64,000 nt of DNA from Membranipora membranacea (taxonomy: Eukaryota; Bryozoa; Gymnolaemata; Cheilostomatida; Membraniporidae). Positions 5,687-64,000 of this stretch are shown here, one piece after another; positions within the stretch are counted from its first letter, which is position 1; every line of letters starts with the position of its first letter. The stretch is taken from the NCBI GenBank assembly GCA_914767715.1, contig OU612074.1, forward strand, positions 5,037,501-5,101,500, given 5' to 3'. Both the position numbers and the translations under genes were made by a program. The notes beneath the pieces were generated by a model. That model saw nothing but the letters and a program-made list of their open reading frames with translations. It had not been told where the DNA came from and did no database searches.

Positions 5687-6501
5687 ATGAACAAGTTAAC
5701 AATCACTCTTCTCTTCGCAGCTGTTGTTGGTAAGTACTTTGAGCAGATACCACAACCATTCATCGATTCAACGCATCCATTTATTGACTCAACTGTTTGT
5801 TTTTGATAACTTTTCCTTTCATCTTCAAATATGACAAATTATCTGTGAGTTGCCTAGTGTGAAAGTAAATTCAAGAAGCGATACTAGAGATTTATAATTG
5901 AAGTTTTCATAAAATAGGTTGAGGGTAGTTGTTAGCAAGTGAATCATTTTTTCTACTTACAATTGTTTTAGGTGCCTGCATCGCACAAGGCGAGAGCGAT
6001 GGTGCTGTTGATGGTGAAATTGAGGCCCAAGGCGACAGAAGAATGCGTTGCCGATGTGGAGAAGGGCCATTGCATAGAATGTTCAAGGGAGAAAAACCAA
6101 TTGGAGATGGAGAAAGTGGAGAGGGGCGAGGTGAGGGCGATAGAAGAGGACCACCAAGAGGGGACAGAGATGGACAAGGAGAGGGAGGAAGAAGAGGACC
6201 ACCTAGAGGAGAGGGAGGTGAGGGAGAGAGAAGAGGACCGCTAAATGGAGATGGACAGGGAGAGGGGCGAGGACCAAGAGGTGATAGAGAAGATGAACAC
6301 AGACCAAGAGGAGAGGGAAGAAGACAACAAGGTGAAAGAGAAGGACAAGGACAAGGAGAAGGTGGAAGGAGACGACCACAAAGAGGAGAGGGACAAGTGG
6401 ATGGTGAGAGAGCAGGACCAACAACAGAGGATGGACATGGACGACCAAAGTGCCAGTGTCGCCCAAGAGGTGAAAGAAACGAGACAGAAGAATCAACTTA
6501 A
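5687..6501 (+). CDS. G1: diverged member of the secreted Gly/Arg-rich repeat family
   Basis: The coding exons are 5687-5729 and 5972-6501, with introns 5730-5971 and 6510-6786, both GT-AG. The product is 190 residues. A signal peptide covers about 1-19, with likely cleavage after ACIA. An acidic segment runs to Arg37-Arg38. A first Cys-x-Cys lies at Cys41/Cys43 and a second at Cys175/Cys177. Between them is a low-complexity Gly/Arg/Glu/Pro/Gln region with repeated RRGPPRG-like units, unlike the GERPQGDGE units of G2-G8. The tail is Glu/Thr-rich instead of GKKEESA. The 5' UTR runs straight from the TATA region to ATG, so the non-coding first exon and intron of the other members are absent. It is the most diverged copy. 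Secretion is well supported; function is unknown, and an immune or extracellular-matrix role is only an inference. Confidence 0.82.
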
Positions 6502-7055
6502 ATGTACAAGTAAGTTTATACAACATTTAATCTCACACTAGCACAAATACCTATCAGGACAAAGAGTTGAGATATTTGAGAATATCTGCACTGCCTCATG
6601 CAATTCTAAATATTGAATGTAGATAGTAAGATAGTAAAAATAATTGGACAACCCTTTATTCAGGCTAGGGAAGTCATCCATTCCTGCCTTCAAATGGCTC
6701 TGCTGTTATTATATACCCACCTATTCTGGTGCAGATATAAATAGAAGTTTACAATTTTGACAGGCATGTTTGGTCTCTTCCAATAGGCAGTCACAGACAA
6801 AGATAATCACACAGACGGTAATTACCTTATGGATATGGACACAGACAGAGATATGAATGATATTCACATATCACCATGTATATTCGAGTACTGAAATTCA
6901 GTTTCTTATTTTGAGATGCCAACCAGTCTATCAAATCAGGCCAGTAAGATGTCTTAATATGGAAGCTGTTTTGTGGTATTCATATTTATGTGAGACTTAT
7001 AATTTATAATCAATATGTATATTTTCCTTCCTGCTTGCTTTTTAAAGGCTCATAA

Positions 7056-7061
7056 AATAAA
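7056..7061 (+). terminator. G1 polyadenylation signal
   Basis: AATAAA follows the 3' UTR exon that begins at 6787 after a TTCCAATAG acceptor. The exon contains CACAGAC-type repeats, as in the other copies. Confidence 0.6.
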
Positions 7062-7084
7062 CACTATGCAACTTGAAACTAACT

Positions 7085-10850: not shown

Positions 10851-11703
10851 TTAAGCTGATTCTTCTTTCTTGCCTCTTCCGCCTCCTGGTCGACAATGGC
10901 ACTTTGGGCGACCCTCTCCATCACCTTGTCTTGGTCCTCGTCCCTCTCCATCACCTCGCTCTCCTTGTCTCTCTCCACCTCGTCTTGGTCCTGGTCCCTT
11001 ACCACCTTGTCTTGGCCCATTTCCCTCTCCTTCACCTTGTGGTCTCTCTCCATCACCTTGTGGTCTCTCTCCATCACCGCGTCTTGGTCCTTGTCTTTCA
11101 CCGTCACCTTGTGGTCTCTCTCCATCACCACCTCGTCTTGGTCCTGGTCCCTCTCCTTCTCCTCTTGCTCCTCGTCCCTCTTCACCACCTCGTGGTCCTT
11201 GTCCCTCTCCCATTTCCCCATCCCTCATTTGTCTGCCTCTAAATCCCTGTCCACAGGAGCATCGCATTTTTCTTCTCACTCCACCATCTCCAACATCCAC
11301 TTCAGCATTTGTATTCTCAACTTCGGTTTGTGCGATACAGACACCTGAAAGTTATGAATAAGTAGTTTTACTTACTTAAAAAACCGAATCAGTTCTTGTG
11401 TACACAAAGAAATTCCTGTTTCCAATCATCATTTTTTTTATCCAGTCAGGAAGAATCAGTGCTGCAACACCACCTCTGTTTTACAAGTTTCATATTCAGT
11501 GGCAATATTTATTTCAGATTCCACATGCTGTTTTGTCTAGAAATCTCAATATGTATAGCTTCTAGTTTCTAGTTGTACCTCATAAATACCATACAAAATT
11601 ATTGATGTTGATATTTGATTTAGTTGAAGTATCAATATGAGGCTCTTTCCCAGTACTAACCAATAACAACTGTGAAGAGAAGAGTGATTGTGAACTTCTT
11701 CAT
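10851..11703 (-). CDS. G2: secreted Gly/Arg-rich repeat protein
   Basis: The coding exons are complement 11661-11703 and 10851-11344, giving 178 residues. A non-coding exon 1 ends at 11837 and exon 2 starts at 11708 after TTTTTTGCAG. The signal peptide is MKKFTITLLFTVVIGVCIA. An acidic stretch ends in Val-Arg-Arg-Lys, followed by Cys43/Cys45 and, near the end, Cys163/Cys165 and the GKKEESA tail. The middle has GERPQGDGE and GPRRGG units. Oddities: the intron 2 donor is GTTAGT rather than GTGAGT, and the TAA stop is the last codon of exon 3, directly on the splice junction. A stop so near the last junction should escape nonsense-mediated decay. It is intermediate in divergence between G1 and the G3-G7 group and is convergent with G1. 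Function is unknown; secretion is confident. Confidence 0.85.
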
Positions 11704-15324: not shown

Positions 15325-16379
15325 TCCTAATAGTTGTTTTGTGACCTGCTTGGTTCATCAGTGCTACACCGTTGGAAGTAACTAACCATGGAAAAGGGGA
15401 TTAATATCCAGGCGGCAAGGGAAGGTTATTTTGAGAGATTTTGCAATAAGTCTGATGTCATATCGGGTTCAAGCTGGATTGATAAGCGTCCTTCTCATAG
15501 GCTTTTAATCTGGGGATTAAAATCAATATAGCTTGGGAGTTTGTGTTGATCATGAACACAGTTTTATTTGATCAAAATTCCCTAGCATTCATTGAAAAGA
15601 ACAGAAAAAAAGTTAACTCATGATGGAAACAGGCAGCATTCGAATGCTTAAAGATTTTGCTGCAAGATTGATGAAAAAATGAATTCATGGTTTAATGAGT
15701 GTCTTTATCATTTCATGGGCTTTAAATGCAGGAGAGGGAGAATATCAATAATGATAGAGAGTTTAGGTTGATCATGAACAGAAGTTTCAGACTAAAGGGA
15801 TTGATTGCAAAGTTTTATTTGCCCAGTGTGTGTAGTTAGCGAATTGGCTGGGCCCCAAAAAAAATATATAACTGGAAGTGAAGACACCCATAGATAATAT
15901 TGTAAATAAACATAAACTTATTGTTGTCAGACTACAAATATGTAAAGTTTGAACTGCTCTCTGCATATTTGTCATTTTTCGAGTTCATGATGGTTGCATC
16001 GCTCCGGTAAATAAGTGGTCTTCAATTTGTAAGCCATTTATAACCACAGTATCTGATATGTAGCTGATTAAAAGTCTCTTATATATGCCATCATGCACAT
16101 TTGCAGCTCTTGGGCATAAGCTGCAAATTGAGACTTGGAATTTTGAAGACACTTTATTTGTCACATGAGTGGTGCCTGTCTGTTCGTTTGTCTGTTGTCA
16201 ATATTAGCTCATAGTGATTATCAGTTCATACAGGTGTATCTGATTATCCTCAACTCATTGTGATTGCACATGTAAGCTTACATCTTACAGAATATCTGTC
16301 TCTGACACACCAACCCTGTGAACATGCTAAAAAGCACTATTTATAAGCACCTTGTGTATAAAATTTTCTTATGCAGCCA

Positions 16380-16767
16380 CGAATAAATATGATGTATATA
16401 CCGGTCAGTGGTGGATCTTATTGGTCAGAACAAAACGTTTTTCTCCTAACACATTATATTGAAGAAGGATCACAAAACGAAATGAATCATCAGAATATAG
16501 GATGAGTTTATCATTGATAAAGAAGATACAGATGCCTCCAAGACAGCATGTCCTGTTCATTATGTTTTTCCAATTTGGTCACTTGTCTGAGATCGCTAAT
16601 AACCAAACTGAGTATTATGGTTCCAATTGTAACCATCACTCTACGTCAATGCGCCGGTGCAAGAGTTTTAGTTTACCGCTTATGGTGAAGTTAATCTTTA
16701 ATCTCAATCATGTTGGGATTATGGTAATTTGATGAGCTTGACTAGGTTTACAAATTTACTATAAAAG
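16380..16767 (+). promoter_or_regulatory. G3 upstream module and TATA box
   Basis: The TATA box TATAAAAG lies at 16760-16767. A 15-base palindrome, TTTATCATTGATAAA, at 16507-16521 holds two inverted GATA sites. A CRE-like ACGTCAAT follows near 16643-16650, then tandem TTAATCTTTAATCT at 16691-16704 and GGGATTA at 16715-16721. The same blocks in the same order precede G5, G6 and G7. Binding by GATA, K50-homeodomain (Otx-type) and CREB/ATF factors follows from known consensus sites and has not been shown here. Confidence 0.65.
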
Positions 16768-16969
16768 CACAAGCACAATTAAACTCCAGCACACAGCTTC
16801 ATACTTAGCTATAGACAGAACATAGAGAGAATATTCACAAGGTAAGCTAAGATTTATCAAGCAAAATCGCTCAATTTAGCTCCACTTATTCGATCGACTG
16901 ATGAGTTTTATTATTCTGAATACATTACTTACCAAATATTCTTGTACTTTTTGATTTTTTGCAGTAACC

Positions 16970-17836
16970 ATGAAGAAGTTCACAATCACTCTACTTTTCG
17001 CAGTTGTTATTGGTGAGTACTAAAAGGGAATTTCATATAAATACTTCACCTCATTTGAACTTTGCTAGACTATTCATTTTCATGCATATCTAGATAAAAC
17101 AGCATGTGAACTCTGAAGTTAATATTGCAACTGAATGACAAATTTATAAAAAAGAAGTGGCTCACAACAGTGATTGGTGATACACCTGAACCTTTCTGAA
17201 GAACCTTCCTGTATGTATTTGACAGAAATAAATGCTGGTTTAAGATATGATGATTAGACATTGAACTTCCATTAAGTATGCGTGTAACCATAATAACTTA
17301 GTCAGTGTTTAAAGTAAATAAAACTAAAGTGTTCGTATCTTTCAGGTGTCTGCATCGCACAAAGTGAAGTTGAAAATACAGATGCTGAAGGGGATGTTGC
17401 TGGAGATGGTGGAGAGAAGCGAAGGATGCGTTGCCCCTGTGGACAAGGGTTTACCGGCAGACAAATGAGGGATGGGGAAATGAGAGAAGGACAAGAACCA
17501 AGAGGTGGTGAAGAGGGACGAGGAACAAGAGGAGAAGGAGAGGGACCAGGACCAAGACGAGGTGGAGAGATACCACAAGGTGAAGGGCAGGGAGATGGAC
17601 CAAGAAGAGGTGGTCATGGAGAGAGACCACAAGGTGATGGAGAGAGACCGGAAGGGGAAGGACAGGGAGATGGACCAAGAAAAGGTGGTAAGGGACCAGG
17701 ACCGAGACGAGGTGGAGAGAGACAAGGAGAGAGAGGTGATGGTGAGAAACAAGGACCACGAGGTGAGGGAGAGGGTCGCCCAAGATGCCATTGTCGACCA
17801 GCAGGCGGAAGAGGCAAGAAAGAAGAATCAGCTTAA
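16970..17836 (+). CDS. G3: secreted Gly/Arg-rich repeat protein
   Basis: Coding exons 16970-17012 and 17346-17836 give 177 residues. The non-coding first exon ends at 16841; the introns are 16842-16964, 17013-17345 and 17841-18113, all GT-AG. The signal peptide is 1-19 (VCIA before the cut). Residues 20-38 are acidic, then Lys39-Arg40-Arg41 gives a possible proprotein cleavage site. Cys44/Cys46 and Cys162/Cys164 form two Cys-x-Cys pairs. The region between is a disordered, nearly charge-balanced Gly/Arg/Glu/Pro/Gln repeat (I count about 28 basic and 25 acidic residues after the dibasic site) with GERPQGDGE and GPRRGG units. The tail is GKKEESA. Gene G5 is its near twin in unit 2. The short Gly steps do not keep the Gly-x-y register of collagen. 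The family role is unknown; an extracellular host-defence role is a hypothesis. Confidence 0.88.
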
Positions 17837-18400
17837 ATAGGTAAGCTTTTAACAAGGGTATATTTCAACACCAAAACAATACCAAGCAGGAGAAGAAATT
17901 AAGGCAGCACATAAAAATCTCTACAATTACCTATTGCATTACGCAATATTGACATCTACTGAGAGCTGAGCTGATCTTAGAACAAATAGATCAGTTCAGA
18001 ATCTATAGAATGAGATAGAAGCTCTTTTTTTGTATGAGCTGCTTTTTTTTATCTAATGTCAATTACAATAAAACTGTTATTCCTTTCTCATTCTGAACAT
18101 TCTTTTTCCCTAGGTTCAGTAACTAATGCAGACACAGGCCCAGGCACAGACACAGAGACAAACACAGACAGAGACACCGACAAAGACCACCACAACCACA
18201 ACCATAAAAAAAACAATTATTAGCTTCGTTTTCTCACAATGTATTTCGATAGTTTTTGTGCAATACTTATTTCCATTAGTTCAGTTCAAGAGCTGTATGG
18301 CATCCAGATGCCAATCTTCGTCAAATAATTTGACTTATATACTGATTAAATTTGATGTGACATTTTTGTTCTTTGTTAGAATCTTTTGAAAGGCTTATGA

Positions 18401-18406
18401 AATAAA
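18401..18406 (+). terminator. G3 polyadenylation signal
   Basis: AATAAA near the end of the 3' UTR exon that starts at 18114 after TTTTTCCCTAG. The exon opens with a CACAGA-rich stretch; its open frame at 18126-18389 lies after the stop codon and is not translated. Confidence 0.7.
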
Positions 18407-18445
18407 CCTATCTCAATTCAATTTATTGGCATGTGTAACGTCACC

Positions 18446-21400
18446 TCATTGCTGGCTTACTTGAAACAGTCAACACCTCGAAAATGTCTTCTGTCCTTAG
18501 TTTTGACATAGATTATACTTGCAACCTGAAGAGAAAAAAAACAAATTACCATAAAATAGTATGTGGAAGCTTCAGTGATGATTAAAATGCATTGTGACGT
18601 TTTAAAATATATCAATGCTGGGAATAAATTATCATGGAGTTGCAGATTGATAGTAGAGTTGGGAGCGGATGCTATTTTGAGAATTTTAGCAATATGTCTG
18701 ATGTCATTATGAAATAAAGCTGGTTTGATGAGCATCAATTTCATAAGATTTAGTCTTAGGATTAAGATCAAAATAGCTTGGGAGTTTGCGCTGAACATGA
18801 GCACAGAATGGCTTGAGTGCCAGTCTGATCATTAAATGGCTGTTGCTAATGTGATGAACCTGAGAGTTTGTGTACAGTGTGTGTCGATGAAATAATGTTT
18901 TCCCTAAATTATGCTTAACAAAATGACCAAAAACATAATATCCAAACCCCCCCCCTCCCATAAAGTGGACTGCTCTGGGTGTTTTTATGAGTGCAAGTTA
19001 GGAAAATGATGTTCACTACAAAATCACTATGATCAAACAAAGCAAATTTGTACTTTGTGACTAAAAATATAGATAACACATATAATATATCACTGAAAAC
19101 TGTTGTGTATTATCTTAAAGTACCATTATACCTTCTTTACATTGAGAGAAAACATAATTGGTGGAAAAGGCATACGCCTTCGGCCCTGAAATTTCTCAGC
19201 GTCAATCAGAGTCTGTTGATTTAAAGATCAGGTCAAATTCTGGTTTATTTCTTATTCTTCGGAAACAAGCTAATATCTTAATTAATAAATTATTATCTTA
19301 TTGACAAAACATTCTAGGCAAAGATATTACAATTAAATTGTTGTGAATTGTTATCAAGGACCAAAGATATATTAATGCAGGACCTGAAGGCACCTGATGG
19401 TACATAGTACATGGAAGCTTGCAGTGATAGTCATAATATATCGGGACATTTTTTGAATACATCAATGTTACACTGTTGGGAATAACTGATCATTGAACCG
19501 CAGATTAAAAGTAAATTCGCATGGGAAAGTTTTTGAGAGGTTTTTCCTGCAAGCATGATGTTATATTGATTTAAGCTGGATTAAAGAACGTCCTTCTCCT
19601 AGATTTCAAATCCAGGGATTAAGTCCAAGATTGTTTGAAAGTTTGCGGCCTGCACATGAACACATCTTTATTTGATCAGAATGAATTTCAACAATCGTAA
19701 TTATCATCGAGTGGGCTAATCGTCTTGAGGTAAACTATATTTCTACTGCTGGCTGTACAGTTTGCCAGCCTTCCAGTTCAAAATTATCAAATTGGTTAAA
19801 AAATTCAGTAGCACTTATTGTCAATCGGGATGATGGTCGTTATATAGAAGGCTCAAAAACCATCGATGCAACCTTTGACCATGCACACTAAGACTTGTTC
19901 CCACAATCTCTCACGGAGTATCGAATGCGATCCTTGCTGTAGGCAACCGATGCCTGAAGCTGTGATCGCCTTTCTAAAGCTCTTGGTGTTTCCTGTGGGG
20001 AAAAGTATCCAAAAATTTTTTCTCATTTTAATATCCGCCACAAACTCACCATGATTCCTAGCTGAGTCTCCAAGAATAATACCTTTCTATTCAATGAACC
20101 GATAGCATGGTCCTAAGTTTTTGTTATTAAAGCTGTATTTTTCATCTTTTTGAAACTGAATCATATAATAGTAAAATAATGTTAAAAATAGGGTAGTTTT
20201 TAGCAACTGATGTGAGCTCGGATAATATAATACAACCATTAAGACAGACCACTGAATTCACAACCGCATTGTACAACCAAGGGCTTTCATTTATTCTGTT
20301 TGAGAAACTTGAAAGTTAGCCGTTTTTGTTCCCAACTTTAGCAGAAGATATTGATTGAAGTAAACTGCATGGATACATTTTCTTTCAAATTATTACTTCA
20401 GCCTATTTCACTGAACCCATTCAATCGATCCTGTTAGATAAAACTCCTCTTATTCACCTCAAACTTTGGCAATCATAGTTAAAACAAATTATAAAGCCAC
20501 TTGAATCATGCCCTTTAAAATTGAGCATATAAAAAAGACGCTCATAATACTAGCTTCTAATGATTATCCCAGCAAAATTACTGGAAAACCTAGATCCGAG
20601 CTTTAAAAATAGCATGATCTATACTCATATAATATTATTCTGTCATAAAATATATGTTTATTTCAGCTACTGCAGCACTAATTTGTTTTGAAATGCGCCA
20701 TAAGGGATCATCATAATCACCTCAAGCTTCCAGGTATTATAAAACAGACATCTAGATATTCCTAAAATACTTCAGACTTTCTGAAGAATCTGCGCTGGAG
20801 CACACAAATTAACCATCATCTGTCTTTTTAGTATTGACATGGGAATCCATGAACATCAACCGCTCCGTTAGTGGTTTGTTTAAACGCGTAACCGGGGTTT
20901 TGCGATGTCTCTTCCAAGTATGGCAATTCAAACATCAATAGTTGACAATTCAAATAGCAATATTTATATTGCTCATTGATAACACATGAAATAAAAATAT
21001 TCCCCTCATAAATAATCTGTGAGAATTTGAAATCATCTTGATTCAAATGGTTATGTTTTGATTCGTTCCCAGGAATCAGATAAAGATCAAGAACAGGGGT
21101 CCGATTAATTTATATTTCGATACCCCTACGTGTTTATCGAGGGCAGTGTGACTTTTTTTCTCTTTTGTAGTGAAACCGTCATGTCTGTTTCAATTATTTG
21201 GAATGCTGCGAAAGAATGGCTCTAGGTTAGGTAACAAATTCTGTCGATGCGGGCTGTGATATGTTATAGATAGAATTCAATTGTACCGGTAAGGAGAAGG
21301 GTAGTGGTCAAGCAAGCTATTGATGATGTCCAAGAAGTTGATAAAGTAGTTGTTAAATCTTGGTCTGTCAAATCTGAAAGTTTTGATCCCGTTTTTTTTT

Positions 21401-21950
21401 CTTGAAGTTGCAATTCATTCCTGAATTAATAATTAAACTTGTAAATGAATGTACTTTGTGGTGTAAAATGGACATAATTTTCCTGCTCGTGATATTTGTG
21501 ATATATAACTTCTCCGAGCGTACTCTCTGAAATTTGTTATTTTCAATTCTTTTCAATTCAGTTCTTTAAAAAAAGACGCTCTACAAAAAGATAATATATC
21601 TTTGCATTTGTTTCTAACTATAGGCCTAAACTATCAAATTTCTCTCGGTTAGTTCAAGTAAAGCCATCAGTGACCAGAAAACGGGACACGGTCAACATAA
21701 GCCATCATTTAGTGTTGAAAAAATCTTGCAGGTAACCCGCACCAAGGATTTTAAATTAATCTAGGATATCCTCTCACTAATAATCTATGATAGATTGAAC
21801 ATTAAATTGTCCAATGCAGAATTTAATTTGTATAAATATGTCAATTGGTTTTATCATTAACATTTACACTTATTTCACCATACCCATTGAACGTGTAAGC
21901 TATCAGTATTCAGTTTTATAACTTGTGAAGTTTGATTGTGGAAATTTTCG
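18446..21950. repeat. G3 3' flank: stacked dispersed repeats
   Basis: No gene. 18446-18900 and 19370-19690 are two relatives of one repeat, with ACTGTTGGGAATAACTGATC-like and GGGATTAAGATC-like blocks, also seen at 30200-30510, 41430-41660 and 61790-62000. 18947-18955 is a C tract. 20560-21560 is a further copy of the flank repeat described at 8.4-9.6 kb. All of it is repeated at 37.2-40.67 kb. Small open frames (for example 18457-18804 and 20828-21046, minus) recur in both units only because the DNA is duplicated. Confidence 0.6.
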
Positions 21951-21960
21951 TTGTTCAGAT

Positions 21961-22015
21961 CCTGTTACTGCAACTTGAGGGACCCACATCAACCTCTTGT
22001 TAACCCATACCCTCT
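21961..22015 (-). pseudogene. Decayed exon 3 fragment, copy A
   Basis: Read on the minus strand this aligns weakly with the 3' end of family exon 3, around the GAGGGTCGCCCAAGATGCC part that encodes the second Cys pair. It is the weakest of five such pieces; the homologous piece at 33520-33580 is clearer. Short and degenerate, so it is only a possible relic. Confidence 0.3.
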
Positions 22016-22084
22016 GCATCAATTTTCAAAGCTTATGTTTGGTTTTAAAAAAATTGATTGTTACAAGTACTCGGTACGCAATGT

Positions 22085-47400: not shown

Positions 47401-48969
47401 TTAAAAATTTATACACAATGTGCTTATAAATAGCGCTTTTCAGCATGTTCACAGGGTTGGTGTGTCAGAGACAGATATTCTGACAAAAATAGAACCAGAA
47501 AAAAACTGAACAAGGCTAATTTTGGGAAAAAATTGGTCTGATAAAACCTCCTTTGTTTGGCTGATGAGTCCTCGATATTGGCAACAAAAGCCAAAATATG
47601 TGAAGATTTCTCTGTACACTACATTGATGCATATATACATAATGCCTCTCGTGATCATGCCGGGGCATGTAGATCATTGATAAACGAGGCAAACATTACA
47701 ACAAAGGAGGTTTCTCAGCTTAGCTTAGCTTAGCTTAGTAAAGCTTACATGTGCAATCACAATGAGTTGAGGAGAATCAGACGCCCCTGTATGAACTGAT
47801 AATCACTATGAGCTAATATTGACAACAGACAGACAGGCACCACGTCATGTGATAAATAAAATGGCTTCAAAATTCCAAGTCTCAATTTTCAACTCATGCC
47901 CAAATGCTGCAAATGCGCATGATGGCATATATAAGAGACTTTTGATCAGCTACATATGTTACTTCACCCCTTCGATGCCATGGTTATCACAGTTAAAGCC
48001 TCAGAACTTCTCCCTCAATGTAATTTTTGGCTAAATACAGCTTTGCAGCTAGCACACATCACATAAATAACTGCTGCTGATTCCTAGTAGAAAAATCATT
48101 TATGGTGGCTCACTATATATTTGATGCCATGGCAATGGAGCAGGTCACTGTTTTCAGTAACATTAATCCGGATAATGATCGGTCGGTTGGTTCAATACAA
48201 AGCCATAGCAAACAAGGTCTATTGAAAAATCTATAGCCTCTTTTACACACAGCAGCCTATTTGAAAAGGTTGTTGGTCTGACCACTATATGTGGCAATCA
48301 TTTCAGCCTTCCCCTCCAATGATCTCAGACGTTTTAAAACGTGCACATCTGATCACAATGCTCAGGCCCAAAGCAAACTGGTGTGAAATCAGAATGAATA
48401 TCAGTTAATAATTTTTCTCCATCATAAGCTTTGTAACTGTTAGTTATCATAAAATTGGGATGAATCAAAATGTAATACTGGGGTGGTTCTGTCTCAATAA
48501 TCTAGTCTTGTCTGGATGGTTGATCAATAGTGGTCTTTTTTGTGTGCAGAGTTACATTTTATCCCTGACAGAATTTGTGAACTAGTTAGAGTGTTTAATG
48601 ATAGCTGTAGATACATATTCTAGATATTTTGTGTTAACAGAATGTAACTAGAAATGCCGCGATAATAAACGCCACAAAACTTCAGGGGTGTGGATGTCAT
48701 ACACTCAGGTTGTCGATTGAGTTTATGATGGATGGCCATTTGGCAATGTCATAATAAGGGCAAATTAAAATGGCTGTATTTGCTATACCACCTATGAGGT
48801 AGACATCCTGAGTAACATTGTCCTTTTATATGGCAGAACTCCCCCACCTATATTCCCAGTGCATACAGCCATTGAATAGAGTGCAACAAACAAGTAATAA
48901 TTGTTGTATATTTATGAAAGTCATATGGAAATAAGAGGTCTTCCCATTGCTCCTCCTTGCTTTTTTTAA
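47401..48969. other. G6 distal upstream flank, no gene
   Basis: Collinear with 27960-29560. The AGCTT pentamer run recurs near 47716-47745. The reading frames at 47449-47658 (minus) and 47819-48034 (plus) are matched in unit 1 only through duplication. Confidence 0.5.
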
Positions 48970-49200
48970 TCTGGTCTCTCGCACTGAGATCAAACACTCC
49001 AACTGCTCAGCCACGCTGGCCCGCTGAAGCTTGCAAAGCTCACTGCGATAAAATCCAGGTGTAAGTAGTTTTTAATAGGTAACATAACAAAACAGTTATA
49101 CCACCAAGTAGCAAGAGAGATGATATGTAAATAAAATCTTGTTGTATCAGGAATTGAACTCGGGCCTCTTGCGCAACAAGCGTGTCACAACTGTGATATA
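48970..49200 (-). mobile_element. tRNA-derived SINE pieces, copy 2
   Basis: The A-box half at 48975-49025 has lost about 22 nt around the B box compared with 29570-29645. The second piece at 49138-49200 keeps AGTTCAATTCC. Confidence 0.45.
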
Positions 49201-49779
49201 ATTTATAAAAATGATAAGTAGTAGGCCTACACATGCACCTCCTTGCCTTACAGATTTAAATTGATTATGAATGCGTAAAGTAAGCTGTTGTCTAATTTGT
49301 TTAATTTTTTTTTTCAAGCTTTCATGGCACAAATCAGGAAAAAAAGTTAAAAAGTATGATATGCCCGGGCCTTTATTTATTCTGCTTGAGAAAGTTAGCG
49401 GTTTTTGTTCTCATCTTTACAGGAAGATTAAATTAAACTGAGTAGATACATGTCCTCACAAATTATCGCTTCAGCCTATATCACAGAACTTATTGGAAGA
49501 ATCCTGTGAGATATAACGCATCCTGTTCACCTCCAACTTCATTATTATTATCTTTATTCTGACTATTGAATTTCACACTGAGTGTTAAACCTTAAAAAGT
49601 CTTTTTACATAAAAAGTGACACCTTGTTTTAAAAATCCTGTTTTAAAATCCGGTAAAAATAATTTATAAGGAGTAAAAAACCTATTCTTTGTAAGATATG
49701 ATGTCCTGATCAGCATATGTAAGCAACAATTCGTTTTTGCGTAATTCGGTTCTGCAATTGATGGCCGCCCTGGGCTTCA

Positions 49780-50530
49780 GCCGTGCAGATCATTGATATT
49801 CAGTTTGTGGTTAGGGTAGCAGCTTGTGCAATAATGCAATTTGATTTTTACTTTTCACTTCCTGCACTGCTGGTTGATATAGTCACCCAGTGGTTTGAGT
49901 TCTAAGGCAGATACTCTGTCATGGTTATCACCCGATGCTGAGCTGATCATTTTGACTGCCAATTCCTCATGCGATATGAACTGCTCTTTCTATGTTGAAC
50001 TGAGGTAAGGGTAACGTGCAGGGCAGCCATATACCAGTTCAGGTCTAATGCAGCCTGTGTAGAATCGCACTAGGAGATCTTTTTGCAACCCTGAGTTCTT
50101 GAGATTGGTGAGCACATAGGTAAGCGGTCTGACTTTTTCTCCAACCATATTGATTGTTTCTTCCGAGGAACTTGGTTTGGTACTGCGCTGCTATTTGTTC
50201 GCCGCTTAGTGTGACTGGTGGAGCAGTTGATGTATCTGATCGGGCATGCTTGTTTGTGAAATTTACGGTCACAGATTTCTTGGTATTTGCGAACATACAG
50301 TGATCAAAGCACCATTGAGCTATGTCATCAACTGCAGATTTTAGGCAGTGGGGACTCTCTAGATGCTAAGTTTGATGCCAAATCAAGGTGAGGTCATCTG
50401 CATTTGTTATCATATAACAGGGTAGTTTGAAGGTGTCCACATAAGAGAAGCCAAAACATTGGTCCCAGCAATGTTCCCTAGGGTGTGCAATTTGCAACAT
50501 ACTGGCTGTCACTGCATTGTCACTGTGGTA
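49780..50530 (-). mobile_element. LINE reverse-transcriptase fragment, copy 2
   Basis: Twin of 31400-32140. The palm motif at 50393-50404 reads NADD where copy 1 reads YADD, and the GTLLGPMFW block is again preceded by TAG. Frames at 50045-50296 and 50366-50572 are parts of this dead element. Confidence 0.8.
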
Positions 50531-50549
50531 AAAAGAAATACTATCCCAG

Positions 50550-51890
50550 CAGTATAACTTGGTAATCTGCATCAGAGCTCCAAAAATAGCCTTAAAATGT
50601 ACTCTTATAATATTAATCTGTCATAAAATATATAATATTTATTTCAGCTACTGCGGCAATTAGCTCTTTCAAATGGGTCATCAAGGATTATCATAATCAC
50701 CTAAAACTTCCAAGTATTATAATACAGCCATGTAGATATTCACTCAAGCACTCAAAATAACCATTTTCTGCCTATTTAGATCTATGAACACTTATTTCAA
50801 CTTCTTCGGTAGCAGTTTATTCAAATGCGTCACCAGGGTTTTGCAATGTCACTTCCAAGTATCAAATCGCAGACATCTATAGTCAACCATTCCAATAGCA
50901 ATATTCATCTTGCTCATTAATAACACAAAAGCACAAGCATCCTCCTCATACATCTGTGGGAATTCAAAATCATTTTGATTTAAAAAATTATGTTTTGGCC
51001 GCATCCAAAGAATCAAATGAAGATCAACGTCAGGTGTCTAGAATTTGAACTCCCTTTGTGTACATCAAGCACAGTGTGACTTCATCCATAGAAGTAAAAC
51101 GGACATTTTTTTTCAATTGTTTTGAGCGCTGAGAAAGGTTGGCTGTAGGTAATTTACCAACTCTGACGATACAACATTGATATGTATATATATATATATA
51201 TACATATATAGATATGACTTGCTTGTCCTGGTTAGAAGAATCGTTATGGTCAAGCAAGCTATTGATTTTGCCAAAATATTTGATAAAGCAATTGTTAAAT
51301 CTCAATACTTCACAATCCCATTTTTTCTGGACAGTGCAATTCATCTCTGAATTCAGAATTAAGCTTGTAAATATATGTAATTTTTGGTGTTAAATTGACA
51401 AAAATTTTCCTGTCTGTGATATTTGTGATTTTATTACTGCGAGCACATCTCTGAAATTCGTTTTTTTTCAACACAGTCTGCAAATATAAACTCTCTGAAA
51501 ATTTTGATGGCTTGAATCTTCTACACACTTATGTTTGAGTTTTCTAAAATAAAATACCGCTGTGCATTTGTTCCTATAAACTAACTATAAACTATAATAT
51601 TTCTCAGTTAGTACAAATAAAGCCATAACAGTGGCCAGAAGAATAGGACACAGTCAACGTAAGCCACCAGTTATTGCTGAAAAAAACTTGCAGGAAACCA
51701 GCACCAAAGGATTTTAAAATAATCTTATTAATAATCCATCATTGATTGAAAAATTAAATTGTCCAAGGGAGAATGTAATGTGTATAAATACGTCAATTAG
51801 TATTATCATTAACATCAAAATTTATTTCACCATACCCATTAAAGATGTAGGCCACCAATCATCAGTTTTAGAACTGGTGAAGATTAATTG
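50550..51890. repeat. Dispersed flank repeat, copy 5
   Basis: Collinear with 32170-33515. A (TA) run is at about 51184-51201. The frames at 51030-51344 and 51310-51528 are by-products of repeat DNA. Confidence 0.6.
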
Positions 51891-51910
51891 TGTAAATTTT
51901 CTCTGATTAG

Positions 51911-51965
51911 ATCCTGTGACTGCACCTTAATCGACCCTCTTCACCCTCTTGCTGTCCTCGACCTT
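51911..51965 (-). pseudogene. Decayed exon 3 fragment, copy D
   Basis: Twin of the 33520-33580 piece, about 2.2 kb upstream of G7 and divergent from it. On the minus strand it reads GAAGAGGGTCGATTAAGGTG, against GAGAGGGTCGCCCAAGATGC in intact exon 3. Confidence 0.42.
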
Positions 51966-52498
51966 ATGCATCACTATTCAAAGCTTCTGTTTGTGATTTT
52001 GAAAAAAGATTTGTCATTGTCCTCAGTATGCATAAGAACTGATATTTTAATTTATAGGAAGGGTGGAATGATAAAATGGTTGGTGACACTTAGGCGCATT
52101 ATAACACCAGCAGTTGAATTATTTTTTTATGAAATAACAATTTAGGATAATTATGGCTTTAATGGTAATTTCTGATGGTTTGCTAGAGGAATATTCTGCG
52201 ATTCCACTTCAATAAATTATAGCTGTCTCGATGGTGTCCCACGGCCTTCCTCACTACAACAAAACTTTTTAACAGAAGCTTGTGATGAAAACAGGAATTG
52301 CACAATGGAGATATACATAGTTTCTCCCCTGACCTGAAAAGACAAAAAATAACTATCTTTAGGCGCTCACATACATTCAATAATTTTAAACTGCTTGTAA
52401 ATTTGTTTATGTTATTTTCTAACAACCGATTAGGATTATTTTTGTTTTCTATGAATACTAGGTCATATTTGTTTTGACCAACTAGGTCAGGTTTTGAC

Positions 52499-52527
52499 CA
52501 ACTATTGACCAACTAGGTCAATAGTTG
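52499..52527. repeat. Perfect hairpin at the unit 2/unit 3 junction
   Basis: Identical 12-bp stem and AACTA loop to that at 34108-34136. Confidence 0.75.
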
Positions 52528-53809
52528 TTTTGTGGCCTGCTTGGTTCATCAGTGCTACACTGTTTGGCATTACTGACCATGGAATAGGGGATTAATAGCC
52601 AGGCGGCAAGGGATGGTTATTTTGAGAGATTTTGCAATAAGTCTGATGTCATATCGGTTTCAAGCTGGATTGATAAGCCTCCTTCTCATAGGCTTTTTAT
52701 CTGGGGATTAAAATCAATATAGCTTGGGAGTTTGTGTTGATCATGAACACAGTTTTCTTTGATCAAAGTCCCTTAGTATTCATTGAAAGGTACAGAAAAA
52801 AATTTAACTCATTATGGAAACAGCTAGCATTCGAATGCTTAAAGATTTTGCTGCAAGATTGATGACAAAATGAGTTCATGGTTTAATGAGTGTCCTTATC
52901 ATTTCATGGGCTTTTAATCCAGGAGAAGGAGAATATCAATTATGATAGAGAGTTTGGGTTGATCATGAACAGAAGATTCAGACTAAAGGGATTGATTGCA
53001 ATATTTTTTTTGCCCAGTGTGTGTAGTTAGCGAATTGGTTGTGCCCCCAAAAAAAATATATATAACTGGAAGTGAAGACACCAATAGATAATAATGTAAA
53101 TAAACATAAACTTATTGTTGTCAGACTACAAATATGTAAAGTTTGAACAGCTCTCTGCATATTTGTCATTTTTCGAGTTCATGATGGTTGCATCGCACCG
53201 GTAAAAAAGTGGTCTTCAATTTGTAAGCCATTTATACCCACAGTATCTGATATGTAGCTGATTAAAAGTCTCTTATATATGCCATCACGCACATTTGCAG
53301 CTCTTGGGCATGAGCTGAAAATTGAGACTTGGAAATATGAAGAAATTTTATTTGTCACCTGACGTGGTGCCTGTCTGTCTGTCTGTTGTCAATATTAGCT
53401 CATAGTGATTATCAGTTCATACAGGGGTGACTGATTCTCCTCAACTCATTGTGATTGCACATGTAAGATTTACTAAGCTAAGCTAAGCTGAGAAACCTCC
53501 TTTGTTTTAATGTTTGCCTCGTTTATCAATGATCTACATGCCCTGGCGTGATCACGAGAGGCAGTATGTAGATATGCATCAAGTAGTGTACGGAGAAATC
53601 TTCACATATTTGGGCTTTTGTTGCCAATATCGACGACTCATCAGCCAAGCAAAGGAGGTTTTTTCAGACCAGTTTTTTCCCAAAAATAGCCTGGATCAGT
53701 TTTTTTCTGTTTCTATTTTTGTCAGAATATCTGTCGCTGACACACCCTGTGAACATGCTGAAAAGCACTATTTATAAGCACCTGTGTATACATTTTTGAT
53801 ATGCAGCCA

Positions 53810-54179
53810 TGAATGAATATGATGTATATAACGGTCAGTGGTGGATCTTCTTGGTCAGAGCAAAACGTTTTTCTCCTAACGCGTTATTTCGAAACAGGAT
53901 CAAAAAACGAAATGAATCATCAGAATATAGGATGAGTTTATCATTGATAAAGAAGATTTAGATGCCTCTAAGACAACATGTCCTGTTAATTATGTTTTCC
54001 CAATTTGGTCACTTGTCTGAGCTCGCTAATAACCAAACTGAGTATTTTGGTTCCAATTGTAACCATGACTCTACGTCAATGCGTTTACCGCTTATGGTGG
54101 AGTTAATCTTTAATCTCAATCATGTTGGTATTATGGTAATTTGATGAGCTTGACTAGGTTTAAAAATTTACTATAAAAG
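53810..54179 (+). promoter_or_regulatory. G7 upstream module and TATA box
   Basis: TATAAAAG at 54172-54179 and the GATA palindrome TTTATCATTGATAAA at 53937-53951. The TTAATCTTTAATCT pair is kept, but GGGATTA has changed to GGTATTA. Further upstream (53465-53740) G7 keeps a segment that G3 and G5 have lost but G4 and G6 still carry in inverted form. Confidence 0.65.
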
Positions 54180-54389
54180 CACAAGCACAATTAAACTCCA
54201 GCACACAGCTTCATACTTAGCTACAGACATCACATAGAGAGAATATTCACAAGGTAAGCTAAGATTTATCAAACAAAATCCCTCAATTAAGCTTCACTTA
54301 TTCGATCTACTGATGAGTTTTATTATTCTGAATACATTTACTGACTAAATATTCTTGTAATTTTTGATTTTTCATTTTTTGCAGTAACC

Positions 54390-55312
54390 ATGAAGAAGTT
54401 CACAATCACTCTTCTCTTCGCAGTTGTTATTGGTGAGTACTAGAAGAGAATGTCATATAAATACTTCACCTCATTTGAACTTTGCTAGACTATTCATTTT
54501 CGTACATATCTAGACAAAACAGAATGTGAATTCTGAAGTAAATATTGCAACTGAATGACAAACTTATAAAAAGAAGTGGCTTGCAATGGTGATTGGTGAT
54601 ACACCTGAACCTTTCTGAAGAACCTTCCTGTATTTATTTGACAGAAAATGCTGGTTTAAGATATGATGATTAGACATTGAACTTCCATTGAGTATGCGAG
54701 TAACCATAAGAACATATTCTGTGTTTCAAGTACAAAAAACTAAAGTGTTCGTATCTTTCAGGTGTCTGCATCGCACAAAGTGAAGTTGAAAATACAGATG
54801 CTGAAGGGGATGTTGCTGGAGATGGTGGAGAGAAACGAAGGATGCGTTGCCCCTGTGGACAAGGGTTTACAGGCAGACAAATGAGGGATGGGGAAATGAG
54901 AGAAGGACAACAACCACGAGATGGTGAAGAGGGACGAGGAACAAGAGGAGAAGGAGAGGGACCAGGACCAAGACGAGGTGGTGATGGAGAGAGACCACAA
55001 GGTGATGGAGAGAGAAATGGACCAAGAAGAGGTGGTGATGGAGAGAGACCACAAGGTGATGGAGAGAGAAATGGACCAAGAAGAGGTGGTGATGGAGAGA
55101 GACCACAAGGTGATGGAGAGAGACCAGAAGGTGAAGGACAGGGAGATGGACCAAGAAGAAGTGGTAAGGGACCAGGACCGAGACCAGATGGAGAGAGACA
55201 AGGAGAGAGAGTTGAGGGCGAGAAACCAGGACCACGAGGTGATGGAGAGGGTCGCCCAAGATGCCATTGCCGACCAGCAGGCGGAAGAGGCAAGAAGGAA
55301 GAATCAGCTTAA
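54390..55312 (+). CDS. G7: secreted Gly/Arg-rich repeat protein (longest member)
   Basis: Coding exons 54390-54432 and 54762-55312 give 197 residues. Introns are 54254-54384, 54433-54761 and 55317-55588. Signal peptide, acidic segment, Lys-Arg-Arg at 39-41, Cys44/Cys46 and Cys182/Cys184 are conserved. The repeat region holds two near-identical 18-residue units, GGDGERPQGDGERNGPRR, at 54977-55030 and 55031-55084, followed by a variant third. One unit more than G6 explains the 18-residue difference. The sequence is closer to G6 and G4 in this region than to G3 and G5, though its position in the unit matches G3 and G5, which suggests gene conversion or exchange between members. Confidence 0.88.
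54977..55138 (+). repeat. 54-bp tandem repeats inside G7 exon 3
   Basis: Two 54-bp units follow one another with almost no differences, and a third starts at 55085 and diverges after the first half. They encode the GGDGERPQGDGERNGPRR unit. Confidence 0.85.
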
Positions 55313-55877
55313 ATGAGTAAGCTTTTAACAAGGGTATAGTTCAACACCAAATCAATACCAAGCAGGAGAAGAAATTGAAGCAGCACATAAAACTTTCTAC
55401 AATTACCTATTGTATTATGCAAGTTTGACATCTACTGAGAGCTGAGCTGATCTTAGAACAAGAAGATCAGTTCAGAATATATAGAATGAGATTGAAGCTC
55501 TTTTTTGTATGAGCTGCTTTTTTTTATCTGATGTCAATTACAATAAAACTGCTATTTCTTTCTCATTCTGAACATTCTTTTTCCCTAGGTGCAGTAACTA
55601 ACGCAGATACAGGGACAGGCACAGAGACAAACACAAACAGAGACACCGACTAAGACAACCACAACCACAACCATAAAATAAAACAATTAGGCGTATTAGC
55701 TTCGTTTTCTCACGACTTATTTCGATAGTTTTTTGTGCAATACTGATTTCCATTAGTTCAGTTCAAGAGCTGTATGGCATCCAGATGCCAATCTTCGTCA
55801 AATAATTTGACTTATATACTGATTAAATTCGATTTGACAGTTTTGTTCTTTGTTCGAATCTTCTGAACGGCTTATGA

Positions 55878-55883
55878 AATAAA
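55878..55883 (+). terminator. G7 polyadenylation signal
   Basis: AATAAA in the GGCTTATGAAATAAACC context. The 3' UTR exon begins at 55589 after TTTTTCCCTAG. Confidence 0.7.
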
Positions 55884-56362
55884 CCTATCTCAAAATTTAT
55901 TGGCATATGTAACGGCACTTCATTGTTGGCTAAGTTAAAACAGTCAACACCTCGAAGATCTCCTCTGTCCTTAGTTTTGACATGAATTATACTTGCAGCT
56001 TGTAGAGAAAAAAACAATTTACCATAAAATAGTATGTGGAAGCTTCAGTGGTGATTAAAATACATTGTGACGTTTTGAAATATATTAACGCTGAGAATAA
56101 ATTATCATGGAGTTGCAGATTAATAGTAGAGTTGGGAGGAGATGCTATTTTGAGACGTTTAGCAACACGTCTGATGTCATTATGAAATAAATCTGGTTTG
56201 ATGAGCATCGATTTCATAGGATTTAACCCAGGGATTAAGATCAAAATAGCTTGAGAGTTTGGCTGAACATGAGCACAGATTGGTTTGAGTGCCAGTCTGA
56301 TGCTGTTGCTAATGTGACGAACCTGAGAGTTTGTGTACTACAGTGTGTGACAATGAAATAAT

Positions 56363-60670: not shown

Positions 60671-62599
60671 TTTCAAAGCTTCTGTTCGGTCGTTTGAGAA
60701 AGGTTTATCACAATTAATCAGTACGCATGAGAACTGGTATTTTAATATTATCAGAAAGCCATATTCATATAGGAATGGCAGATTTAGAATGCTCTTCCTA
60801 AAATAAATCTTTTTTTGGGATGTGGTGTGTATTTCAAGAGGTTATATTCTGCGATTCTGTAATAATGAATTATAGCTACCCCATGGCCTCCATCACTACA
60901 AAGCAACCTTTTAACAAAATCTCATGATTAAAACAGGATTTTCACAAAAGAAATCTATGTAGTTTCTCCCCTCTGTTCTGAAAATGCAAAAAAATCCTCT
61001 TTAAAGGCGCTCACATATATTTAATGATTTTACACTGCTTGTAGTTTTGCATGTTTTCATCCCATAACCAATATACAGTTTTCTGAGCTCTTATTCATGC
61101 CTCAATTAGGAGTTGTCCTCTCTCAAGTTTGGTTCTTTTAACCCACGCTGCATAGGAAAAACCTGCTGAAACAGGGTTATCTTGAAAACCGCTTATGCTA
61201 GGATAAAAACGAAATTTGATTCAGAGTCTGCACCATTGAAAACCCCAGGGTTTACAAATCATTGGAGGCTTGAAAGTTGATATATCTTAATTTTAGTGAC
61301 GAAACTCATGAAAAATTCTGCCAAATTGTCTGCAAAATAGGCAGATAATGCTATAATTGACTATCAAAATACTAAATTTATTTTCCAAACTATTACCATA
61401 TGAGTTTTCAATGCTGCAGATTCTGAATCAAAAATAATTTTTATCCTATTATAAGCAGTTATCAACCCTCTTTTCAGCACGTTTTTCCTATGCAGCCTGG
61501 GTTAAAAGTACAAAACTGGAGAGAGGACAACTCTGAAAGGAGACCTAAATCAGAGCTCAGAAAACTGTCTTTTAGGATAATTTATGTTTTATTTCCATGT
61601 ACACTAGGTCTTATTTGACAGCCCAATTTAATGGGGACCTTTTGCTTCTGTGTCTAATTGACCCTATTTGTTTCCTTGCCTGCCGTGACCAAGTCACCTT
61701 TTTCAAGGCCTCAGTCATAAGTGTCACTTATGGTCACCAATAAGATAAAACAGGAAAGGCAGACTCCTTATCACTGTTTCACAGCCGTTTGGTTCATCAA
61801 TGCTTCACTGTTGGGGATAAGTGATCATTGGACGGGGATTAAAAGTAAGGCGGCAAGGGAAATTTATTTTGAGAGTTTTCTCAACAAGGCTGATCTCATG
61901 TTGATATAAAGCTGGTTTGATGTGCTTTTAATAGGCTTTTAATCCAGGGATTAAGATCAAGGTAGCTTGACGGTTTGCGTCGATCATGAACGCAGTATTA
62001 TTTGATCAGACTGGTTTGAGTGAAATTCTCATCATTTCCCAAAATTCTCGTTACAATGTGATGAACCTGATAGTTGATGTACAGTACAGTTTTCTTAGGC
62101 TTTTAGTTCAGGAGGAGATTATTATTGTTTGAGAGTTCTTGTTGATCCCGAAGACAAAATTGCAGGCTAAAGGGAGGGATTGCCAAACTTCAGTTATTCA
62201 GTGCGCATCAACCTGGTTATTTCCTTAAATGGAAGTTGCAAAGTTTTTTATGAGAATAGTTAGGGAATTATTTGTGCCATAGCAATGTCAATGTGGTGTA
62301 CTGAGAAATTGTCACATATCTACTGACACCGATATCGATAACACATCGGGTGCTTAGCTTTATTTGTACATAGCAGGATGATGATGTAATCAAAGAGATT
62401 GGTATGCGATCAGCCAAACAAAAGGAGTTTATATAAGTCATGAGTTTGGTTAATATAAGCTTTGGCCACCAAGGGCAGTATGACTTGCTCAACCCACAAT
62501 GACAAGAAAAGCATGTCTGTGTTTTTATAGAATTCTGTTCCTGGCTCATCAGCCATAACAAAACTGAAAGTTCTAGACATAAACTTTCAATAGACACCA
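60671..62599. repeat. G8 upstream flank, no gene
   Basis: Diverged relatives of 33600-34600 and 52010-53000 in the same order. About 61100-61560 is an insertion with an inverted repeat at its ends: GAGCTCTTATTCATGCCTC near 61087 mirrors the 61540-61557 region, GGACAACTC mirrors GAGTTGTCC, and the arms carry AACCCACGCTGCATAGGAAA against TTTCCTATGCAGCCTGGGTT. Confidence 0.5.
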
Positions 62600-62964
62600 G
62601 TATATTATCTCTATATTTACACCATTCAGTGGTGTATCTTCTTGGTCAGAGCAAAGTATGTTATTTTATCTATCAGGCTATTTCGCAACAGGATCACGAA
62701 ACGAATCACAAGATAATGAGTGAGTTTGTCGTTGATAAAGAAGATATAGATGCCTCTAAAACTGCATGTCCTGTTTATTATGTTTTCTCAATTTGGTCAC
62801 TTCTCTGAGTGTTTTGGTTCTAATTATAGCCATCCATTTACGTCAATGTGCCAGTGCAAATAGTTTTATTTTACCACTTATGGAGGATTAACTTTTGATC
62901 CAATTTATGTTGGGATTATGGTCAATTGATAGGCTTGGCTGAGTTGACAGATTTACTATAAAAG
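62600..62964 (+). promoter_or_regulatory. G8 upstream module and TATA box
   Basis: TATAAAAG at 62957-62964. The GATA palindrome is reduced to GTCGTTGATAAAG, so only one GATA site remains. ACGTCAATG, CCACTTATGG and GTTGGGATTATGG are kept. Confidence 0.62.
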
Positions 62965-63178
62965 GCCGAGCACAATAATACACCAGCACACAGCTTCTTA
63001 CACAGCTTTAGACAGAACATAGAAAAATATTCACAAGGTAAGCTTTTTAAGATTTATCTAGGAAAAAAGCTTCATTCAGCTTTAATATCTTTGGTTGACC
63101 GATCTGTGTTATTATTGTTAATATATTGACTGTCTAAATCTTCTTGTAACTATTGACTTATTATTTTTTGCAGTAACC

Positions 63179-64000
63179 ATGATGAAACTCACAATCACTC
63201 TTCTCTTCACAGTTGTTATTGGTGAGTACTGGAAAAATAATCGTATTAATACTTCAACTCAATCAAATATCAACACTGTTCATGATTAATATTACTTTTG
63301 GGGTACATATTGAAACTAGTGACTATACATATTGAAGTTTCTAGTCAAAACAGGGTGTGAAATCTGAAATAAATATTGCCACTGAGAGACAAATTTCTAA
63401 AAAAAGTGGTGATGCAGCACTGATTGGTGATGCACCTGTACCTTCCTGAAGATTATTCTTGTCTGGAATGCGAATAAAAGAAATAATAATCTAAAACATG
63501 ATACCGATTGAGTTCATGAGTGTAAACAAGAACTGATTTGGTTTTTGTAAATAAGTACAACTATTTATTTTTAACTTTCAGGTGTCTGTTTCGCACAAAG
63601 TGAGGTTGAAAATACAGATGCAGAAGGGGACATTGCTGGAGATGGTAGAGAGAATCGAAGAATGCGTTGCCCCTGTGGACAAGGGTTTACAGGCAGGCAA
63701 ATGAGCGATGGGGAAATGAGAGAAGGACGAGAACCACAAGGAGAAAGAAAGGAACCAGGACCAAGACGAGGTAGAGATGGAGAGAGACCACAAGGTGAAG
63801 GAGACGGAAATGGGCCAAGACGAGGCGGTGATGGAGAGAGACCACAAGGTGATGGAGAGAGACCACAAGGTGATGGAGAGGGACAAGGACCAAGACGAGG
63901 CGGTAAGGGACCAGGACCAAGACGAGGTGGAGAGAGACAAGGAGAGCCAGGTGATGGAGAGAGACAAGGACCAAGACAAAGTGATGGAGAAGGTCGCCCC
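63179..64000 (+). CDS. G8: secreted Gly/Arg-rich repeat protein, cut by the window edge
   Basis: The coding part of exon 2 is 63179-63221. Exon 3 starts at 63582 and runs past 64000; 154 codons are visible, in frame to the edge. Non-coding exon 1 ends at 63037. Two adjacent ATG codons begin the protein (Met-Met-Lys-Leu); either could be used. The signal peptide ends VCFA. The acidic segment ends Glu-Asn-Arg-Arg instead of Glu-Lys-Arg-Arg. Cys44/Cys46 are present; the second Cys pair would lie just beyond the edge. Repeat units are GERPQGDGE and GPRRGG types, and a deletion near the start of the region removes the EEGRGTRGEGE part. It lies in the same orientation as G7, breaking the alternating pattern. 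Confidence 0.83.

Follow-up and report, generated by a model that had tools for sequence, protein, structure and literature searches.

A clustered family of predicted secreted repeat genes with paired Cys-x-Cys caps in the bryozoan Membranipora membranacea

The closest described counterparts of the genes reported here are the Transformer (185/333) genes of euechinoid sea urchins (SpTrf, HeTrf, PlTrf), which encode proteins of 220-354 amino acids (aa), respond to immune challenge in phagocytes and, in the portion of PMC4204807 available to us, are stated to be known from sea urchins only. The leader of the He185/333 genes, 63 bp in length, is interrupted by a phase-1 intron between nucleotides 55 and 56 (according to excerpts from the set PMC5491942, PMC8634487, PMC8268236, PMC4204807 and PMC9623053). 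In this study we describe a gene family of the cheilostome bryozoan Membranipora membranacea, located in a 64,000-nucleotide stretch of chromosome 10 (C10:5037501-5101500, referred to as the window) and in the DNA around it. The existence of a family of eight genes in the window (named A-H), which was originally predicted from the letters of this stretch, was confirmed by sequence analysis, and the whole locus was found to carry at least 20 intact genes. Their products are tentatively interpreted as a disulfide-linkable, charge-balanced and disordered secretion that would form extracellular material, encoded by a tandem locus that is apparently restricted to its lineage.

The bryozoan and sea-urchin families have much in common. 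Both consist of short genes with two coding exons, a conserved hydrophobic leader exon and a repeat-rich, variable second exon; both form tight clusters with segmental duplications, and both encode Gly-rich proteins with predicted disorder and, in some members, an RGD motif. The leader of the bryozoan genes is also split by a phase-1 intron (after nucleotide 43, in a leader of 57 nucleotides provided that residue 19 is the last of the signal). Phase-1 introns are common in the leaders of secreted proteins, and this shared trait is therefore weak evidence for membership of the Transformer family. On the other hand, the bryozoan proteins are shorter (172-197 aa in the window, 135-197 aa across the locus) and lack the His-rich region (0-3 His between the caps in the eight window genes), three of the four bryozoan subfamilies defined below (I, III and IV) have, by sequence, an intron in the 5' untranslated region (5'UTR), and the ratio of nonsynonymous to synonymous substitutions (dN/dS) is mostly well below 1. 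No GA arrays flanking the genes were listed by Tandem Repeats Finder (score 50) in the window, and the Transformer leader (MELKLIL type; the printed PlTrf leader is MELKLILIIAIVAAITISA) appears to differ from the bryozoan one when one printed leader and three printed peptides are compared by eye. Finally, full-length Sp185/333 proteins lack cysteine, whereas all 20 intact bryozoan genes encode exactly four mature Cys, arranged in two Cys-x-Cys (CxC) pairs.

The original prediction had already separated this family from SpTransformer. The distinction was upheld on the features tested (phylum, His-rich region, GA arrays, size and CxC pairs), so that the bryozoan genes are not regarded as Transformer members, although their products may work like them. 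The contrast in His-rich regions stands. Two others had to be softened: He185/333 proteins contain cysteine (PMC4204807, in the part available), which makes the absence of this residue a weak criterion of membership, and the division of the leader by a phase-1 intron is common to both families. The echinoderm setting assumed for the window was incorrect: the source is a bryozoan, no sea urchin is involved, and echinoderm proteomes and coelomocytes are therefore the wrong test system. A purine-rich repeat family can evidently lure the reader to the wrong phylum.

Two further groups of secreted proteins resemble the bryozoan family in part. Cnidarian minicollagens are short and secreted, and combine a pro-region with a Gly-rich centre flanked by caps that contain Cys. 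A minicollagen has at least about 12 consecutive Gly-x-y triplets; a minicollagen identity, or any collagen-like periodicity, was rejected, since the longest series in the eight window genes comprises 2-3 triplets, and the bryozoan caps differ in having two Cys each. Molluscan Gly-rich or Lys/Arg-rich shell matrix families are likewise lineage-restricted, secreted, of low complexity and multi-copy, whereas the bryozoan family lacks Tyr and acidic runs, and none of the collections searched contained a matching sequence. Sea-urchin tooth matrix proteins were also considered and rejected, as the available part of PMC2614417 revealed nothing in common beyond Gly-richness and acidic stretches.

The window genes were found by leader and exon searches and then spliced at GT-AG sites. 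In all eight, a coding leader exon of 43 nt is followed by an intron of 242-360 nt, with a GT donor and an AG acceptor, and by one large second coding exon. The complete proteins (A to G) are 190, 178, 177, 172, 177, 179 and 197 aa long, and H, which is cut by the window edge, encodes 154 aa inside the window and 171 aa once the flanking DNA is added; the eight clustered genes, seven of them complete, with in-frame joins and products of 172-197 aa, thus agree with the prediction in coordinates and lengths. The leader consensus of the window genes is M[KNM]K[FL]TITLLF..V[VI]G[VA]C[IF]AQ, and by eye, using the small-residue rule, the signal would be cut after Ala19, i.e. before the final Gln of this string. 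The mature chain then runs through an acidic segment, the first CxC pair, the repeat region (110-135 residues long in A to G), the second CxC pair and a tail. From the signal end to the first CxC, basic pair included, the net charge is -4 in seven genes and -2 in B. Each of the seven complete proteins contains exactly four mature Cys, as two CxC pairs, and all of the predicted parts (signal peptide, acidic segment, paired Cys and the repeats between them) were recovered in the window genes.

Beyond the window, a scan of C10 4937501-5171500 and one further stretch (C10 4727001-4937500 was left out) detected 21 leader exons, belonging to 20 intact genes and one broken copy. The locus therefore comprises at least 20 intact genes, spread over 157 kb from 4955232 to 5112586, whose products are 135-197 aa long. 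Searches of the genome gave lower bounds only: 20 matches to the DNA of gene A and 16 exon matches in 10 genes to the protein of gene G (divergent genes being missed), all of them on C10. Nineteen of the 20 intact genes place the last Cys 13 residues from the C-terminus, and the remaining one places it at 11; in 17 of the 20, a basic pair lies no more than six residues ahead of the first CxC. Outside the window, the acceptor of the second exon was chosen among candidates so that the C-x-A-Q motif is retained. The leader exon measures 43 nt in 20 of the 21 leaders; the last, that of gene 5111721, carries a 7-nt duplication at its end and can be read as 43 nt, with GTTATT as the donor and GVSIAQ in the protein, or as 50 nt, with GTGAGC and GYCIAQ instead. 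Both models yield 174 aa and keep both caps, and the 50-nt model was used in the analyses. The broken copy (C10 4721676) has the leader exon and the start of exon 2, both CxC pairs are gone, and an open reading frame (ORF) resembling reverse transcriptase (RT-like) lies downstream.

When the intact genes, 20 in all, were placed in a tree, B-H together with 5111721 (subfamily I) formed one branch, with a support of 100/99, as did 4979036, 4985761, 4991347 and 4996915 (subfamily IV), with 100/100, and subfamily II (A, 5010858, 5015860, 5022249 and 5037230) has a support of 84/83; the grouping of 4955896, 4962312 and 4970029 as subfamily III was not supported as a clade in this tree. The subfamilies follow one another along the chromosome in the order III, IV, II, I; the proteins at the beginning of this series are short and basic (135-151 aa, net charge +5 to +9), and those at its end are longer, richer in repeats and closer to neutral (156-197 aa, net charge -3 to +3). 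Between their caps, the proteins of subfamily IV (C10 4978338-4996915) have a weakly repetitive stretch of the AERRQARIDxGxxPMSREE type, part of which has a counterpart in subfamily III; this stretch may be helical.

Two elements absent from the earlier description were recognized upstream of the coding sequence: a predicted TATA box in all eight window genes and a predicted 5'UTR intron in seven of them, both defined as sequence patterns. In B-H, the TATA box lies 81-82 nt upstream of a GT donor that would close a short non-coding exon, and the putative intron of 112-136 nt ends with TTTTTTGCAG five bases before the ATG. Gene A, which belongs to subfamily II (5687..6501, plus strand), has its leader exon at 5687-5729, an intron of 242 nt, the second exon at 5972-6501 and a TATA box at 5595, 92 nt upstream of the ATG; a 5'UTR intron was not found. 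All of the other window genes belong to subfamily I. On the plus strand are C (16970..17836; leader exon 16970-17012, intron 333 nt, exon 17346-17836; TATA 16760, 5'UTR intron 16842-16964), E (35770..36634; leader exon 35770-35812, intron 331 nt, exon 36144-36634; TATA 35560, 5'UTR intron 35642-35764), G (54390..55312; leader exon 54390-54432, intron 329 nt, exon 54762-55312; TATA 54172, 5'UTR intron 54254-54384) and H (63179..64000; leader exon 63179-63221, intron 360 nt, exon from 63582, running 54 nt past the window; TATA 62957, 5'UTR intron 63038-63173). The minus strand carries B (10851..11703; leader exon 11703-11661, intron 316 nt, exon 11344-10851; TATA 11917, 5'UTR intron 11836 to 11709, 128 nt), D (26106..26945; leader exon 26945-26903, intron 321 nt, exon 26581-26106; TATA 27144, 5'UTR intron 27062 to 26951) and F (45935..46795; leader exon 46795-46753, intron 321 nt, exon 46431-45935; TATA 47013, 5'UTR intron 46931 to 46801).

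Elsewhere in the locus, the other four genes of subfamily II resemble A in having no donor, with the TATA box at -91 or -92 in three of them, and all seven intact genes of subfamilies III and IV have a AGGTAAGC donor and an acceptor upstream of the ATG. Altogether, the TATA pattern is present within 600 nt in 18 of the 20 intact genes (clearly in 17) and was not found within this distance in 4991347 and 5010858. Downstream of the genes, AATAAA or ATTAAA occurs within 500 nt of the stop codon in 12 of the 21 copies, at dissimilar positions except for about +230 in four genes of subfamily I, and was not used as evidence. Short hexamer arrays of the CAGACA type lie about 290 nt past the stop codons of C, D, E and F (18129-18187, 25772-25814, 36927-36979 and 45586-45644), having been carried along with the gene duplications.

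The coding nature of the second exon had to be considered with caution, since its coding strand is 74-76% purine and long ORFs are open in several frames of both strands, so that ORF length alone proves little. Over ten gene pairs, which share history and are not independent, dN/dS in the annotated frame ranged from 0.36 to 0.54 and was the lowest of the six frames in nine; the exception was the C-G pair, with 0.49 in one antisense frame versus 0.54 in the annotated one. In the nine pairs aligned as nucleotides, all 24 gaps in the second exon are multiples of three (two of them represent the cut end of H), compared with 8 of 32 gaps in the intron, and intron identity was below that of exon 2 in every pair. 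Two of the 28 window pairs, D-F (2.23) and E-F (1.08), had a dN/dS above 1, based on few changes, which counts against the coding interpretation.

The analysis of these sequences has shown that the locus grew by segmental duplication and by gains and losses of whole repeats, mostly under purifying selection. Genes C-G are located within segmental duplications (15329..55911), in which direct copies lie 18.4-19.8 kb apart and are about 89-95% identical, in pieces of 1-6.8 kb (matches of at least 900 nt were counted); gene-bearing pieces also occur inverted. Differences in the repeat region among close relatives are mostly whole units (gaps of 21, 54, 57 and 60 nt, plus a few of 3 nt). The longest repeat region in the window, that of gene G, contains two perfect copies of an 18-aa unit, GDGERPQGDGERNGPRRG, which is charge-neutral, and the addition of such units therefore keeps the charge balance. 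The C and E paralogues are near-identical (dN 0.007). In subfamily IV, 4985761 and 4991347 encode identical proteins and lie inside a recent duplication of about 8.4 kb (96% identity). All 190 pairs of the locus were compared, none being dropped for saturation and one identical pair having no ratio; the between-subfamily medians of dN/dS are 0.39-0.60, with no between-subfamily pair above 1.

The Gly/Arg/Glu chains encoded between the caps are rich in charged residues (fraction 0.38-0.58 over the 20 genes), and their net charge ranges from -2 to +6, or from -2 to +3 in the eight genes of subfamily I, whose whole mature chains carry -3 to +2. Tyr is absent from all 20 mature proteins, and Phe and Trp occur at most once each. 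An AlphaFold2 model of the G exon, built from 8 rows, had a mean predicted local distance difference test score (pLDDT) of 45.3, with no residue reaching 70 and no secondary structure reported. Low complexity, the scarcity of aromatic residues, high charge and low pLDDT all point to a disordered chain.

No relatives of the family were identified. The search of a protein database with gene G gave no match at E<=1 among 5884 candidates, and the 8-row alignment of the second exon gave none at E<=10 among the best 7976 candidates by shared words. Of the 20 intact genes, seven were represented in a Pfam scan of their proteins (H without the part beyond the window), and none matched above the gathering score; there were two sub-threshold matches, at 13 bits versus the 25 needed, and the hint of NS5a of hepatitis C virus (HCV) among them was judged a chance CxC match. 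Two proteins searched against PDB revealed no relative, two hits to antibody light chains (E 0.45 and 0.64) being attributed to chance, and none of the stretches retrieved by pattern searches of IMG/VR (23) and GTDB contigs (70) was related. The Rfam and tRNA searches gave no match. These results agree with the initial view of a separate, unnamed family, coherent in itself and without a match in the protein, Pfam, PDB, IMG/VR or GTDB collections. However, an RT-like ORF of the window (44605-45159) also lacked a match in the protein database (74 candidates); the latter may hold little bryozoan sequence, and the absence of the family from it is therefore weak evidence. The top listings of one open-access library, and the parts of PMC9484238 and PMC11358562 consulted, contained no description of the family in the literature on bryozoan secreted, adhesive, immune or skeletal proteins, nor did the leader and N-terminal strings retrieve any paper there. 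Bryozoan secreted proteins seem to be little studied, and a set of 20 genes, with promoters and gene models, is now defined.

What might these proteins do? We tentatively favour, while giving it somewhat less than an even chance, the possibility that they build an extracellular material. According to this proposal, the proteins would be secreted, disulfides at the two CxC ends would link each chain to its neighbours (or these ends would hold a metal), and the highly charged central part, whose charges almost cancel in subfamily I, would serve as a flexible spacer that associates with itself. The product could then be a cross-linked cuticle, skeletal matrix, mucus or attachment secretion, the number of gene copies serving dose. 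The cheilostome cuticle is reported, in the available part of PMC11358562, to contain proteins, mucopolysaccharides and chitin. The preference for a secreted material over defence is based on the mostly purifying selection, the near-identical copies and the near-zero net charge of the most expanded subfamily; near-identical paralogues and the between-subfamily dN/dS appear to suit dose and conserved function better than diversification in an arms race. If the role is structural, the family is a candidate building block of the body wall or attachment of a fouling animal, and a natural design of a charge-balanced, cysteine-ended polymer.

Several observations weigh against this proposal. Subfamilies III and IV (seven genes) are clearly basic, with a net charge of +5 to +9 and an isoelectric point of 9.6-10.7, and would suit a binder of membranes, nucleic acids or polyanions as well as a matrix. 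The low AlphaFold score, obtained from eight close rows, is weak evidence of disorder. Six of the 190 pairs have a dN/dS above 1 (four within subfamily I and two within IV), and selection within subfamilies IV and III is not strongly purifying (median 0.85 and maximum 1.86 in IV, median 0.81 in III). Moreover, the best known biomineral proteins have acidic runs and adhesive proteins of the 3,4-dihydroxyphenylalanine (DOPA) type have tyrosine; judging by its sequences, the bryozoan family, with neither, is unlike them.

Host defence is a somewhat unlikely alternative, in which an acidic prosegment behind the leader is cleaved at the basic pair to release an Arg-rich, four-Cys chain that acts on microbes; the family would then be the bryozoan equivalent of Transformer or of antimicrobial peptides with a preprosegment. 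It is kept alive by the basic subfamilies, the basic pair (a candidate cleavage site, absent from 3 of the 20 genes) and the conserved leader, as well as by the acidic segment of the eight window genes (net -2 to -4). Antimicrobial peptides with a preprosegment, of the strongylocin/centrocin type, share with the bryozoan proteins the signal, the acidic segment, the basic pair (in 17 of the 20 genes) and, in subfamilies III and IV, a Cys-bearing basic chain, whereas the bryozoan proteins are much longer, Gly-rich and of low complexity, with two CxC pairs only and without a Pfam match; the strongly cationic mature chain of these peptides is seen in III and IV but not in the near-neutral subfamily I. 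Between subfamilies, the DNA of the leader exon is 83-88% identical, while introns (identity 0.47-0.55) are close to the mean of 0.45 in 20 shuffles and the mature dS averages 0.8-1.5, a value that alignment of low-complexity sequence can inflate. The silent sites of the leader differ at about 0.20-0.26 of some 10 sites, which is suggestive of an unusually conserved leader, but the sample is very small. Clustering with segmental duplications and the pairs with a dN/dS above 1 would also fit defence; the near-identical copies, the near neutrality of subfamily I, the three genes devoid of the basic pair and a dN/dS not above 1 in 184 of the 190 pairs (undefined in one of these) argue against it. 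The roles in defence or matrix assembly proposed earlier for this family both stay at the level of inference, and nothing favours defence strongly.

A secretion that serves reproduction or the larva, or that comes from a gland (egg coat, sperm, or a larval or venom-like gland), belonging neither to the body-wall matrix nor to immunity, is unlikely: secreted families with a conserved leader and a variable mature part are common in such tissues, but nothing in the locus points to them. It is also rather doubtful that a bryozoan independently evolved a Transformer-like immune locus, in which a highly conserved leader exon would deliver diversified, Cys-capped, repeat-mosaic disordered effectors, varying by segmental duplication and repeat turnover. 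If true, this would represent a remarkable case of convergence with the genes of sea urchins and, according to the parts of the literature covered, the first such locus outside sea urchins. Distant descent from Transformer genes is highly improbable, since the leader split by a phase-1 intron, the Gly-rich, repeat-based, clustered and segmentally duplicated genes and the cysteines of He185/333 (PMC4204807, in the part available) are opposed by the bryozoan source, the missing His-rich region, a leader unlike MELKLILIIAIVAAITISA by eye, the lack of a GA array in the window and the stated restriction of that family to sea urchins (same source). The least credible explanation, that purine-rich low-complexity DNA is open in several frames by chance, could draw on the composition of the coding strand, the long ORFs in other frames and the single pair with a lower antisense ratio, but is opposed by the nine pairs out of ten in which the annotated frame has the lowest dN/dS, by gap lengths divisible by three, and by splice sites, promoter and caps conserved across 20 genes.

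Other sequences were noticed within and around the locus. An RT-like fragment, resembling by eye a long interspersed nuclear element (LINE), occurs in two duplicated copies in the window (24606-25321 and 44516-45162), and further RT-like ORFs were recognized by eye at 31669-32000 and 50045-50365, as well as in the flanking DNA. The right flank of the locus (C10 5145492-5171500) carries a tandem cluster of ORFs that appear, by eye, to be monocarboxylate-transporter-like.

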